Position numbers and translations under genes: made by a program. DNA of 64,000 nt, taken from the NCBI RefSeq assembly GCF_947503795.1, contig NZ_CANNEZ010000001.1, forward strand, positions 1,169,001-1,233,000, written 5' to 3'. This stretch comes from an uncultured Jannaschia sp. GTDB lineage: Bacteria > Pseudomonadota > Alphaproteobacteria > Rhodobacterales > Rhodobacteraceae. Of the stretch, positions 4,271 through 16,546 are shown in pieces (positions within the stretch are counted from its first letter, which is position 1; each line of letters opens with the position of its first letter). The notes under the pieces were generated by a model that ran no database searches, was not told the origin of the DNA, and saw nothing but the letters and a program-made list of their open reading frames with translations.

Positions 4271-5119
4271 ATGAAGCTGTGCCGTTTCGGGGCGCCGGGC
4301 GCCGAGAAGCCCGGACTGATCGATCACAATGGCGACCTGCGCGACCTGAGCGCCGAAGTGGCCGATATCGCCGCCGAAACCCTGTCGGACAAAAGCCTCG
4401 AGATCCTCTCGAAGCTCGATCCGATGGCGCTGCCGAAGGTGGACGGGCCGGTGCGCTACGGCCCCTGCGTCGCGGGCATCGGCAAGTTCATGTGCATCGG
4501 CCTGAACTACTCCGACCACGCCGCCGAGACGGGCGCCGACATCCCCGAGCATCCGATCCTCTTCATGAAGGCCACCAGCGCCGTGGTCGGTCCCGACGAC
4601 GATGTGGTGATGCCGCGCGGCTCGACCCATACCGACTGGGAGGTCGAGCTGGGCGTCGTGATCGGATCGGAGTGCAAATACGTCTCCGAGGAAGACGCGC
4701 TGAACCATGTCGCCGGCTACTGCGTCATCAACGACGTGTCCGAGCGGCATTTCCAGACCAAGCTCACCGGCCAGTGGACCAAGGGAAAGTCCTGCGACAC
4801 ATTCGGCCCCACCGGCCCGTGGCTCGTGACCCGCGACGAAGTCGGCGACGTCCAGAACCTCGCCATGCATTGCGACGTGAACGGCAAGCGCATGCAGACC
4901 GGAAACACCAACACGATGATCTTCACCGTGGCCCAGTGCATCAGCCATCTGAGCCAGATGTTCACCCTGCATCCCGGCGACGTCATCTCGACCGGCACGC
5001 CGCCCGGCGTCGGCATGGGGATCAAGCCCGAGCCGGTCTACCTGAAGGCGGGCGACGTCATGGAGCTGTCGATCGAGAAGCTCGGCTCCCAGCGCCAGAC
5101 GGTGCGCGCCGATGACTAA
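4271..5119 (+). CDS. Fumarylacetoacetate hydrolase-family protein (2,4-diketo-3-deoxy acid hydrolase-like)
   Basis: This is an FAH-superfamily C-C hydrolase of 282 residues. The core begins around FMCIGLNYSDHAAETG (residues 76-91) and includes the metal-binding acidic residues in TDWEVELGVVIG and NDVSERHFQ. The C-terminal STGTPPGVGMG loop is typical. Close functional relatives cleave 2,4-diketo-3-deoxy-L-fuconate or -rhamnonate to pyruvate and a small hydroxyacid, which fits the SDR and dehydratase beside it. The ATG at 4271 starts the typical MKLCRFG N-terminus, with AGGGAGA shortly upstream. The 3' end overlaps the next gene by 8 bases, so the two are translationally coupled. Confidence 0.88.
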   Translation: MKLCRFGAPGAEKPGLIDHNGDLRDLSAEVADIAAETLSDKSLEILSKLDPMALPKVDGPVRYGPCVAGIGKFMCIGLNYSDHAAETGADIPEHPILFMKATSAVVGPDDDVVMPRGSTHTDWEVELGVVIGSECKYVSEEDALNHVAGYCVINDVSERHFQTKLTGQWTKGKSCDTFGPTGPWLVTRDEVGDVQNLAMHCDVNGKRMQTGNTNTMIFTVAQCISHLSQMFTLHPGDVISTGTPPGVGMGIKPEPVYLKAGDVMELSIEKLGSQRQTVRADD

Positions 5120-12439: not shown

Positions 12440-12948
12440 CCCTTCACGCGACCCAGAGCGCGCAGGATGCGCCGTTCCAAGCCCCGACGCTCCGCCGGGG
12501 TCAGGAAGGCGCCGATCTCGACCGCACGGGGTCCGCCTTCGAGCGTGAGGTAATCCTCGACCGTGCCGACCTTCTCGTGCCGCTCGACGCGGATCCAGTA
12601 GGGATTGGCCTGCCAGTCGCGGGTGCTGCCGTCGGGGTCGCGCCGCTCCAGCCGCGCGGCTTCGGGCGTCAGGACGAGATGTTCGAGGATGTCGCGGTCG
12701 CGCCATGACCGTGTGAGCCCCAGCCAGAGCAGGCCCAGCGCCGCGAGGCAGAAGGGGAGCACACCCCAGAGCACGGCCGTCCCGATCAGCCCGACCATCG
12801 GAATGCAGAGCATCGCGAAGGTCGCTCCGATCATCCAGACGAAGCCAGTGCCCGTCATCGACTGGTGCGGCCAGAGCTCCAGCTCAAGCACGGAGGCCCC
12901 GGAGTGATCCGGGGCCTCGGCGCTGTCATGGATGACGTGGATGGGCAT
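12436..12948 (-). CDS. DUF2244 membrane protein
   Basis: This 170-residue protein has two adjacent hydrophobic segments (about residues 36-73). A cytoplasmic C-terminal part includes EHLVLTPEAARLERR and DWQANPYWIRVE, the DUF2244 pattern. The family is often found beside cytochrome oxidase genes in alphaproteobacteria and its function is not established. Here its ATG overlaps the ctaD stop by one base (TGATG), so it is translated together with oxidase subunit I. The region further upstream in the same frame is a shadow of ctaD. Confidence 0.85.
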   Translation of the reverse strand: MPIHVIHDSAEAPDHSGASVLELELWPHQSMTGTGFVWMIGATFAMLCIPMVGLIGTAVLWGVLPFCLAALGLLWLGLTRSWRDRDILEHLVLTPEAARLERRDPDGSTRDWQANPYWIRVERHEKVGTVEDYLTLEGGPRAVEIGAFLTPAERRGLERRILRALGRVKG

Positions 12949-14621
12949 CAGTGATGCGGCTGGCGATCCCACATCTCGCGCGTCGGAAGCTCCTCGAAGG
13001 TGTGCTCCGGCGGCGGATTGGGCAGCGTCCATTCCAGCGTGTCCGCATGCTCGCCCCAATAGGCGTTCTCGGTCACCTTCCGTCCGGCCATGATCGTGTA
13101 GAACACGACGCCGATGAAGAAGAGGAACGAGGCGAAGGACAGGAACGCCCCCCAGCTCGACACCGCGTTCCAGAGCGCGAAGGCGTCCGGGTAGTCGATA
13201 TAGCGGCGCGGCATGCCCTGACGGCCAAGGAAGTGCTGCGGGAAGAACGTCAGGTTCGCGCCGATGAAGAACGTCCAGAAGTGCAGCCTGCCCGCCCATT
13301 CCGGGTATTGCCGGCCCGACATCTTGCCGATCCAGTAATAGATTCCCGCGAAGATGCCGAACACGGCCCCGAGGCTCATCACGTAGTGGAAGTGCGCCAC
13401 GACGTAATAGGTGTCGTGATAGGCCCGGTCGATGCCCGCCTGGGACAGGACGATGCCGGTCACGCCGCCCACGGTGAAGAGGAAGATGAACCCGATCGCA
13501 AAGAGCATCGGCGTCTTGAAGCTGATCGAGCCGCCCCACATCGTCGCGATCCACGAGAAGATCTTCACGCCCGTGGGCACCGCGATGATCATCGTGGCCA
13601 CCATGAAGTAGGCCTGCTGCGTCAGCGACATGCCCACGGTGTACATGTGGTGCGCCCAGACGACGAAGCCCAGGCCGCCGATGGCGATCATGGCGTAAAC
13701 CATCGGCAGGTAGCCGAAGATCGGCTTCTTCGAGAAGGTGCTGACGATGTGGCTGACGATGCCGAAGGCCGGCAGGACCACGATGTAGACCTCGGGGTGA
13801 CCGAAGAACCACAGGATGTGCTGGTAGAGCACGGGGTCGCCGCCACCCGCCGGGTCGAAGAACGTCGTCCCGAAGTTTCGGTCCGTCAGCAGCATGGTGA
13901 TGGCACCGGCGAGGACCGGCAGCGCCAGAAGGATCAGCCACGCGGTCACGAAGATCGACCAGGCGAAGAGCGGCACCTTGTGCAGCGTCATGCCCGGTGC
14001 GCGCATGTTGAGGAACGTGGTGATGATGTTGATCGCCCCGAGGATGGACGATGCGCCCGAGACGTGGACCGCGAAGATCGCGATGTCCGTGGACATGCCG
14101 GCCTCGGTCGTCGACAGCGGCGGGTAGAGCACCCAGCCGATGCCAGAACCCGACTGGCCGTTGCCGCCCGGCACCAGGACCGACAGCACGGCCAGCGACG
14201 TGCCCGCCACGAAGAGCCAGAAGCTGAGGTTGTTAAGCCGCGGGAACGCCATGTCCGGCGCGCCGATATGCAGCGGCATGAAGTAGTTGCCGAAGCCCCC
14301 GAAGAGCGCGGGGATCACCACGAAGAACATCATCAGGATGCCGTGGCCGGTGATCAGGACGTTCCAGAGATGTCCGTTCGGGGTGCAGTCCCCGGCAGCG
14401 GCGGCCGTCAGGCGCGCGCCTTCCATGCACATGTACTGCACGCCCGGATCCATGAGCTCCATGCGCATGTAGACCGTGAAGGCGACCGAGATGAACCCGG
14501 CGAGGCCCGACACGAAGAGATACAGGATCCCGATGTCCTTGTGGTTCGTGGACATGAACCAGCGCGTGAAGAAGCCGGGCTTCTCGTGATTGTCCTGGCC
14601 CGAGATGGCGGCGTCAGCCAT
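12948..14621 (-). CDS. ctaD: Cytochrome c oxidase subunit I (aa3-type)
   Basis: This 557-residue catalytic subunit of the respiratory heme-copper oxidase reduces oxygen and pumps protons. It begins near [13 protein letters not shown] and has about 12 membrane segments. Visible landmarks are the D-channel entrance ([16 protein letters not shown]), the CuB site with the His-Tyr crosslink ([10 protein letters not shown]), the K-channel lysine in GVKIFSW, and the heme ligands in [12 protein letters not shown]. This set identifies the A-type family. AGGAG lies 9 bases before the chosen ATG. Genes for subunits II and III are not in the window, as is common for the split ctaD of this group. Confidence 0.96.
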
Positions 14622-14850: not shown

Positions 14851-14891
14851 CAAAAGAACTCCGCCGACCGTGGGGGGAGCGGTCGGCGGAG
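14851..14891 (-). terminator. Rho-independent terminator of the pilin-like gene
   Basis: A perfect 12-base inverted repeat (14859-14870 with 14880-14891, 9-base loop) lies just past the stop of the minus-strand pilin-like gene. Read on the minus strand it is followed by a T-rich tract (TTCTTTTG), as expected for an intrinsic terminator. Confidence 0.8.
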
Positions 14892-14918
14892 CGGGGTCGT
14901 CTCGGAATTTCGGTGCGG

Positions 14919-15587
14919 TCAGCGGGTCTTATAGAAACCCACGGAGTCGATATAGGTGCCGACATTGTCGACGGCCCCGGTCTCGCGCAGCTCGAGCGTA
15001 TTGGTGCCGTCGCCGGTGCCGCCGGTGACGTCGAATTCATAGGTCTGCCAGACGTTCTCGCCCGGTGCGGCCACGCCGACGAACTCGCCGCCCCAATAGA
15101 CCTCGACGGCGTTGTTGCCGATTATGTCGGTGGCGGCGAAGGCGATGCGGTAGGGCTCGTCGGCCTCTGCGTTGTCGAACGTCTGTGTGATCTGGAGGTT
15201 GCCGGGCGACTCGCCCATGTCGAGGAACCAGCTTCCGTCATGGACATCGGCGCCGCGGTAGCCGTCCCACTTGATCTCGAAGTTGAGGCCGTTCGCTTCG
15301 GTCCAGCCTTCGATCGACTCGGCATCGAAGCCCCAGCTCGCGGTTGGCAGGCCGAGCACGGTCTCGAAGGAGCCGTTGTTGATGTCGACGGTCAGATAAT
15401 CCTCGTCGCTTTCGCCGGTTACGGCTTCGGAGACGGTCGAGGCGAAGACCTGCGTGCCGCCGTTGACGAGGCCGCTGGACGCGATGGCGAGGGCTGCGCC
15501 GAGCGCGGTCAGAAGCACCCACTCGACGGTGACGGTGCCGTCTTCGCGGCGCAGGAAGCGGCGGATGGCAAGAGGCGTGGCAGACAT
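14919..15587 (-). CDS. Flp-type pilin-like protein fused to a lectin-like beta domain
   Basis: This 222-residue protein has two parts. Residues 1-40 look like a type IVb (Flp/Tad) prepilin: a basic leader (RRFLRRED), Gly17 as cleavage site, Glu22 at +5 and a hydrophobic helix (WVLLTALGAALAIA). Flp pilins normally end soon afterwards. Here about 160 more residues follow, acidic and beta-rich, with NGSFE, DGSWFLDM, ITQTF and a terminal SVGFYKTR, resembling DUF642 or carbohydrate-binding jelly-roll domains. It is probably exported, cleaved by a prepilin peptidase and either incorporated in or anchored by the helix. No Tad assembly genes are nearby. A strong terminator follows. Function is inferred. 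Confidence 0.75.
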   Translation of the reverse strand: MSATPLAIRRFLRREDGTVTVEWVLLTALGAALAIASSGLVNGGTQVFASTVSEAVTGESDEDYLTVDINNGSFETVLGLPTASWGFDAESIEGWTEANGLNFEIKWDGYRGADVHDGSWFLDMGESPGNLQITQTFDNAEADEPYRIAFAATDIIGNNAVEVYWGGEFVGVAAPGENVWQTYEFDVTGGTGDGTNTLELRETGAVDNVGTYIDSVGFYKTR

Positions 15588-15677
15588 AAGGATCGTCCGA
15601 TTCGGGTCAGGTGGCAGGGCGTTAACCGTCTCTTTGCCAGCCGACCGGGGCGAAGCTTCGCAGGAATCGTGACGTTC

Positions 15678-16352
15678 CTAAGGCAAGGCGTCGCCACCCA
15701 TCCGCGCCAGCGCGACCGGCATGCTCCGCCGCAACGCGTCGTCGAGGTCGCCCATCGTCACCGGCAGGCCCAGATCGACCAGCGACGTCACACCGTGCCC
15801 GCTGATGCCGCAGGGGACGATTCCGTCGAAATGGCCGAGATCGGGCTCCACGTTGATCGAGAGCCCATGAAAGCTGACCCATTTGCGCAGCCGGATACCG
15901 ATGGCCGCGATCTTGTCCTCGCGCGGGGTGCCATCGGGCAGGGGCGGCTTGTCGGGCCGCGGGACCCAGACGCCGACCCGGCCCGCGCGAATCTCCCCCC
16001 GGATGCCAAATTCGGCCAGCGTGTCGATCACCCAGGCTTCCAGCGCGGCCACGAAGGCCCGCACGTCATGCCCGCGCGCGCCCACGTCGAGCATCGTGTA
16101 GACGACGCGCTGGCCCGGCCCGTGATAGGTGTACTGCCCGCCGCGCCGCGCCTCGTGGACGGGAAAGCGGTCGGGATCGACGAGATCCTCGATCCGCGCG
16201 CTGGTCCCGGCGGTGTAGAGCGGCGGATGCTCCAGAAGCCACAGCGCCTCGGCCGCCGTCCCGGCACGGATACCCGCGACGCGCGTCTCCATCTCGGCCA
16301 GCGCGGTCTCGTAGGGCACGGGGGCCGGGGAGGTGATCCATTCGGGCAGCAT
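15678..16352 (-). CDS. lipB: Lipoyl(octanoyl) transferase LipB
   Basis: This enzyme transfers octanoate from acyl carrier protein to lipoyl domains of 2-oxoacid dehydrogenases and the glycine cleavage system. It has 224 residues. The signature [12 protein letters not shown] lies at 70-81, Lys147 lies in the [12 protein letters not shown] segment, and Cys181 ([13 protein letters not shown]) provides the acyl-cysteine intermediate. The ATG at 16352 starts the typical MLPEWI region; the longer in-frame extension would run towards the tRNA. The gene is divergent from tRNA-Leu. Confidence 0.93.
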
Positions 16353-16459
16353 CGGGTGCGGTCTAGGCGGCGCGGGCCGTCGGGGGAAGGGGGGCGAGAT
16401 TTCCACTTTCCTTCCTCCTGCGGCTTCGCTAATCCCCCGCCACGGCCCAAGGGCGTCAC

Positions 16460-16546
16460 GCGGTCGTGGCGGAATTGGTAGACGCGCAGCGTTGAGGTCG
16501 CTGTGGGGTAACACCCGTGGAAGTTCGAGTCTTCTCGACCGCACCA
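16460..16546 (+). tRNA. tRNA-Leu (anticodon GAG)
   Basis: This 87-base class II tRNA has an acceptor stem GCGGTCG (16460-16466) pairing exactly with CGACCGC (16536-16542). The anticodon loop TTGAGGT gives anticodon GAG, for CTC and CTT leucine codons. A long variable arm and the GTTCGAGTC T-loop region are present. The CCA end is encoded (16544-16546). A strong terminator follows. Confidence 0.95.

Follow-up and report, generated by a model that had tools for sequence, protein, structure and literature searches.

The gene at the centre of this analysis, located in the window (i.e., the whole stretch of 64,000 nucleotides that was analysed), probably encodes a modular minor pilin of the Tad (type IVc) kind that displays a glycan-binding domain (Table 1). 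The cleavage, pilus assembly, surface display, sugar binding and ligand that we infer for this protein would run as follows. The Flp-type leader would put the protein into the inner membrane, where the tad prepilin peptidase (CpaA/TadV type) would cleave it after Gly17, and as a minor subunit it would then enter the Tad pilus, packed in by the pilin helix at the tip or in the shaft. Outside the cell, where it would be held, the CBM/DUF642-like beta-sandwich may bind a glycan, e.g., an algal polysaccharide or an exopolysaccharide. Together with other leader-plus-module genes dispersed in the genome, the gene would form a set that varies what the pili grip.

Table 1 Features of the modular pilin-like gene, its surroundings and the tad locus of the same genome (window positions unless a locus is named)
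Feature	Position	Strand	Basis or remark
Modular pilin-like gene: Flp-type prepilin leader plus CBM-like beta-sandwich	14919..15587	-	222 aa, ATG start; fusion alignment A2
Basic leader, residues 1-17, ending in Gly17; predicted prepilin peptidase cut after Gly17	15537..15587	-	sequence; cleavage inferred
Residues 18-43: Glu22 as the acid at +5, hydrophobic pilin-type helix	15459..15536	-	sequence, profile match
Residues 44-61: remaining pilin-like region and acidic linker	15405..15458	-	sequence; helix 45-56 modelled with low confidence
Residues 62-222: CBM/DUF642-like beta-sandwich domain	14922..15404	-	AlphaFold2 model, VIA-align, family matches of relatives
Upstream neighbour, presumed lipB (octanoyltransferase), 90 bp gap	15678..16352	-	upstream of the fusion in 11/11 loci tested
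Downstream neighbour, presumed ctaD (cytochrome c oxidase subunit I)	12948..14621	-	downstream of the fusion in 11/11 loci tested
Terminator hairpin: perfect 12-bp stem, 9-nt loop, then TTCTTTTG	14859..14891	-	repeat and fold search
Pair of short leader proteins in the tad locus of the same genome, immediately upstream of cpaB	L038:3871-4092 and 4353-4574	-	

The gene, its leader and its C-terminal domain

Codon statistics were used to decide between overlapping reading frames. A 522-aa antisense frame (window 14913-16481, plus strand), which runs over both the fusion gene and lipB, was rejected as a high-GC artefact, and the codon-statistics gene caller preferred the 222-aa minus-strand frame. 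A syntenic homologue with 67% identity was found in a congener (G007), and each of the seven pairs compared had a dN below dS in both leader and domain. Searches of the window protein, leader and domain alike, against Pfam and NCBIfam reached no family cut-off, including those of the Pfam pilin families (Flp_Fap PF04964, Flp1_like).

The N-terminus was compared with a profile drawn from 45 short Flp-like proteins, the window protein not among them. Its first 58 residues were matched at E = 2e-12, and the same profile matched 92 of the 93 long leader proteins at 1e-3, a threshold reached by none of the 713 true non-leader control proteins. The control set comprised 722 proteins, and the nine that did match were all leader genes that had slipped past the filter (eight mis-started or variant leader genes and one 64-aa remnant). 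Both residues of the pilin signature named in the original prediction, Gly17 and Glu22 at +5, are present, and the pair was kept in the homologues, which gave no sign of a plain membrane anchor in its place. Among 143 leader-bearing frames (five of them truncated or alternative forms of others), the glycine at -1 was conserved in 140 of the 141 rows that could be counted and the acid at +5 in 141 of 142, a conservation that is partly built in because the frames were gathered with the leader profile. Counted by length, the glycine was found in 91/92 long and 49/49 short leader proteins, and the acid in 92/93 and 49/49, respectively; this acid is Asp in most of the frames and Glu in the window protein. 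Judged by sequence comparison, the N-terminus of the window protein is homologous to Flp-like pilins. Since it has 222 aa and is not of low molecular weight, the protein was not classed as a canonical Flp major pilin.

The structure of the window protein was modelled with AlphaFold2 from a 58-sequence alignment, yielding a mean pLDDT of 81.5 and block means of 76-98 from about residue 65 onward. In the leader region (residues 1-60), pLDDT ranged from 41 to 54, with a low-confidence helix at residues 24-36; with values below 55, the model is therefore uninformative on packing. Of solved chains, Foldseek retrieved 193 at E ≤ 0.001, the top ones including CBM4, CBM16, CBM22 and HpiC1 cyclases. 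Alignment with VIA-align gave Z scores of 15.2 for TmCBM61 (137 residues, rmsd 2.6), 15.0 for CBM4-2, 14.7 for CBM16, 14.4 for a porphyran-binding CBM, 14.4 for meprin beta and about 14 for HpiC1 cyclases, and the best-ranked fold neighbours were mostly carbohydrate-binding modules. Model and fold search both confirmed the beta-rich, jelly-roll-like C-terminal domain that had been proposed, and a structural search that might have found no jelly-roll family returned a strong similarity, with CBM61 at its head. On the model, the jelly-roll assignment is right at fold level. The proposed resemblance to DUF642 recurred among the 58 relatives, of which, at E ≤ 0.1, 35 matched DUF642, 36 HpiC1-like, 12 CBM_4_9 and 11 CBM60.

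Further comparisons concerned the domain at the level of sequence. The NCBIfam model 'choice-of-anchor C' (TIGR04362) matched two fusion homologues at 4e-10 and 3.8e-8, below its cut-off, and in alignment A4, W95, Q135 and other residues are invariant. A sequence search of solved structures gave weak matches, the best of them (E 0.0094) to endo-alpha-N-acetylgalactosaminidase constructs. A match of residues 91-216 to MARTX_Nterm (E = 3.5e-7) amounted to 27.8 bits at a cut-off of 700; a relation to the toxin was rejected, and the match was taken as a shared RTX-type domain. Sugar binding by the modelled domain is likely, although the fold alone does not imply it, because HpiC1 cyclases and the protein-contact domains of meprin have the same fold.

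Genomic setting and recurrence of the fusion

The two neighbours of the fusion gene are presumed from their sequences to be lipB and ctaD. The strong terminator of the original prediction was recovered downstream of the gene as a perfect inverted repeat with an RNA fold of -37.7 kcal/mol (z -5.2), and judged by this predicted fold the terminator is real. A standard scan for promoters and terminators returned no site of either kind and left the hairpin unreported, probably because its loop is longer than the scan's maximum of 8. That the gene is monocistronic, as had also been proposed, is not supported here: lipB lies on the same strand and ends just upstream, and the standard scan found no terminator-like site in the gap between them. 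Taken as a whole, the earlier reading as a pilin-anchored lectin-like protein is partly supported. Upstream of the leader genes, TTAAC, presumably a CtrA-like half site, was found in 28/139 cases vs 17/232 controls, with 23.1 expected from shuffles, and was dismissed as showing no clear excess; GTTAAC was found in 13/139 vs 6/232 controls (shuffle 4.2), a weak excess.

As had been predicted, no Tad genes lie nearby. The window gene is outside any tad locus, and the tad locus of the genome is on the same contig at a distance of ~585 kb. It contains two 73-aa leader proteins, followed by CpaB and then by further genes in the usual order. CpaB was above cut-off by profile, and the remaining genes are, from their order, presumably CpaC, CpaD, CpaE, TadB, TadC and TadD. 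T2SSE ATPase and TadE were likewise above Pfam cut-off in the genome, TadE being located separately. The search for a prepilin peptidase elsewhere in the genome was successful in that two Peptidase_A24 genes were detected, one inside the tad locus and the second in another cluster resembling a T2SS. By position, the two 73-aa proteins are Flp pilins, and both share the leader type of the window protein. The residue at +5 is usually Glu in Flp and is Asp (GAVTVDW) in the lineage of these tad-locus leader proteins. One of the two was scanned and fell below all Pfam pilin cut-offs, with PF16982 as the best pilin family (0.073), while the PF04964 value of 0.04 belongs to a 161-aa paralogue. Since even a tad-locus protein upstream of cpaB fails, the Pfam pilin models miss this lineage.

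In five of the six genus genomes inspected, the flp gene adjoining cpaB has a long leader protein at a distance of 12.6-12.7 kb, a spacing that links proteins of this kind with the tad cluster itself. A 198-aa leader protein was observed in the tad cluster three genes beyond the prepilin peptidase (L037:9850-10446, minus strand), and long leader proteins at a like distance were seen in four other genus genomes.

Genome contigs were scanned with the domain, yielding 64 loci, of which 53 lie in RTX-motif frames, ten carry a pilin leader and one (L141) has neither. RTX status was assigned by a rough rule, which requires a short repeat pattern to match the open frame at least twice, and one locus (L096) was moved from the leader to the RTX class after reading its sequence. 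The ten leader-bearing loci, which answer the search for the same fusion in other Rhodobacteraceae, belong to four Nioella, one Dinoroseobacter MAG and five other Rhodobacteraceae records. All ten, together with congener G007 (11/11), repeat the arrangement of the window, with lipB, fusion and ctaD following one another on the same strand, and two or more tandem copies of the fusion are present at L078, L080 and L082. Eight plasmid records were found with the domain only, and none of the eight covers 80% of the window protein. Within the genus, the fusion adjoins lipB in 2 of 20 genomes and is therefore dispensable. Given the lipB-ctaD synteny in 11/11 loci but presence in only 2/20 genus genomes, the fusion looks, from these sequence comparisons, either old and repeatedly lost or moved together with its flanks. 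At L158 in G016, just downstream of lipB, a 64-aa leader remnant was observed where the fusion sits elsewhere, with Arg-Val-Asp after the Gly instead of the usual Ala-Val-Thr.

One leader on many C-terminal modules

The distribution of the leader was followed across 198 family genomes. The leader profile matched 169 of them and CpaB was over cut-off in 169 (leader and CpaB in 166, leader only in 3, CpaB only in 3, neither in 26), a co-occurrence that is partly trivial because the Flp genes of the tad loci are themselves counted. The majority of family genomes have 2-5 leader matches, and CpaB was present in 22/22 genomes with at least five. In a class-wide draw, the leader profile was found at 1e-6 in 5 of 240 genomes, three of the same family and two of other families. 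Eleven genomes selected for many leaders or for genus membership contained 121 leader matches, 7-16 per genome, and the window's genome contained 11, one of which is TadE-like (1.2e-5). Beyond what the original prediction had addressed, the window protein is one member of a large leader-plus-module set.

From the 143 distinct leader-bearing frames, 94 of which are longer than 92 aa, C-termini of at least 40 residues were grouped (phmmer E<1e-4) into nine multi-member groups and 20 singletons. The largest group (group 0) has 27 members, the group of the window protein (group 1) has 15, and the others have 11, 6, 5, 4, 3, 2 and 2. The C-terminal domain of group 0 is beta-rich by sequence and occurs in short leader frames, and five other genomes have it in large frames (783-2148 aa). 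A common origin of groups 0 and 1 was not supported by profile comparison (probability 2.9; group 0 vs A4 7.0). In the window's genome, two leader proteins of 238 and 229 aa with the group 0 domain were noted (L012:3478-4194 and L041:9017-9706, both minus strand).

A laminin B domain (2.7e-5, above the Pfam cut-off) ends one leader protein, and another shows a laminin G resemblance below cut-off. A 511-aa leader protein (L231, G030:C2:114300-116600) combines proline-rich DPTP repeats with an HpiC1-like domain (PF22825, 1.3e-16, above cut-off). As far as their sequences tell, the HpiC1-like and laminin-B C-termini would fit a grafting of adhesive modules. Tandem arrays were also observed, one of four leader-plus-module genes (L196, G030:C2:32600-37100) and one of three leader genes (L199, G030:C17).

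On this scale, our proposal is a tentative one: Rhodobacteraceae might run a genome-wide Tad-pilus display set, in which one Flp-type leader on many unrelated C-terminal modules is expressed as alternative minor pilins, so that the one Tad machine of a cell can be refitted for various surfaces of algae or biofilms. With the same reserve, the modules of such a set could be several glycan-binding-type beta-sandwiches, some of them shared with RTX exoproteins, together with several other groups. Its genes may, again as a speculative suggestion, be scattered over the chromosome and other replicons.

Alternative explanations and relation to known pili

As a modular pilin does, the window protein joins a pilin N-terminus to a C-terminal domain that also occurs outside pilus biology, here in RTX-motif proteins; the position of the gene outside a tad locus, its rarity in the genus, the failure to reach any family cut-off, the second prepilin peptidase in the T2SS-like cluster and the three genomes with a leader match and without CpaB count against this reading. 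The same remoteness from tad genes, the bulk of the domain on an Flp-type helix and a structure model uninformative on packing would suit a membrane-held lectin, in which the leader, cut or uncut, does not enter a filament and the helix tethers the CBM-like domain in the periplasm or envelope. A plain anchor, however, would need none of the residues at issue, whereas Gly(-1), the acid(+5) and the surrounding residues are equally conserved in long and short leader proteins, and long leader proteins lie within the tad cluster in five of six inspected genus genomes; we therefore regard such a lectin as rather improbable. A minor pilin whose beta-sandwich binds a protein, calcium or another pilin in place of a sugar, which could serve surface sensing or make the protein an adaptor at the pilus tip, appears unlikely. 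Meprin and the HpiC1 cyclases (Z about 14) are among the neighbours in a comparison of folds, but the top fold rows are mostly carbohydrate-binding modules and the relatives match CBM_4_9 (12/58) and CBM60 (11/58) at E ≤ 0.1.

Since the T2SS-like cluster contains the second Peptidase_A24 gene, the window protein might also be a pseudopilin or cargo of that cluster, served by its own prepilin peptidase. This is very improbable, as the leader is nearest to Flp-like proteins and tracks CpaB over the 198 genomes, in counts that include the tad loci's own Flp. Hardly any weight is given to a chance fusion or a decaying gene without function, to which the scarcity of the fusion beside lipB (2/20 genus genomes) and the 64-aa leader remnant at the corresponding site of G016 could point; the same fusion stands in the same place in 11/11 loci tested, tandem copies exist at L078, L080 and L082, and dN is below dS.

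Read as a modular Tad minor pilin, the window protein can be set beside several known systems. It shares the leader, Gly(-1), acid(+5) and helix with the Flp major pilins of tad loci, but these are short, those of this tad locus having 73 aa, whereas the window protein adds 160 residues forming the beta domain. The fold of that domain is common to domains of the DUF642, choice-of-anchor C and CBM4-16-61 types. Choice-of-anchor domains are known with several anchors. RTX-motif exoproteins carry the same domain as the window protein, which is instead anchored by an N-terminal pilin leader.

PilB and PilC of Streptococcus sanguinis are modular type IVa pilins with grafted adhesive domains (PMC6916266, PMC10191384, PMC12075869), and they have, like the window protein, a pilin N-terminus followed by a bulky domain found in non-pilus proteins. 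PilC carries a concanavalin A-like lectin domain and the window protein a CBM/DUF642-like module, and PilB and PilC are type IVa minor pilins, whereas the window protein has a Flp/Tad-type leader and belongs to dispersed multi-copy genes. The Tad pili of Myxococcus are described as having exchangeable tips (KilL/M/N with KilK/KilO adapters; TadE/F/G) (PMC12075869). Exchangeable tips whose genes lie partly outside the main cluster would be what they have in common with the window protein, but these tips are complexes of TadE/F/G-like or KilLMN proteins, whereas the window protein is one polypeptide with an Flp leader and belongs to a different sequence family. In the open-access PubMed Central literature, neither a Flp/Tad pilin fused to a CBM-like domain nor an expansion of genes with a Tad/Flp leader on modules was found. 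Modular pilins are already known; judged by that literature, what is new is the dispersed Tad-type set in Rhodobacteraceae, below the Pfam pilin cut-offs.

Within Rhodobacterales, tad loci are associated with a life on phytoplankton, to which many members are thought to attach by Tad pili (PMC8383342). Because standard Pfam pilin models miss the lineage, the tad-locus Flp included, pilin counts in such genomes are likely too low. If the leader-plus-module proteins are pilus subunits, modular pilins would be a feature of Tad pili as well as of type IVa pili, and with candidate adhesins named, Tad-pilus binding would become testable gene by gene.
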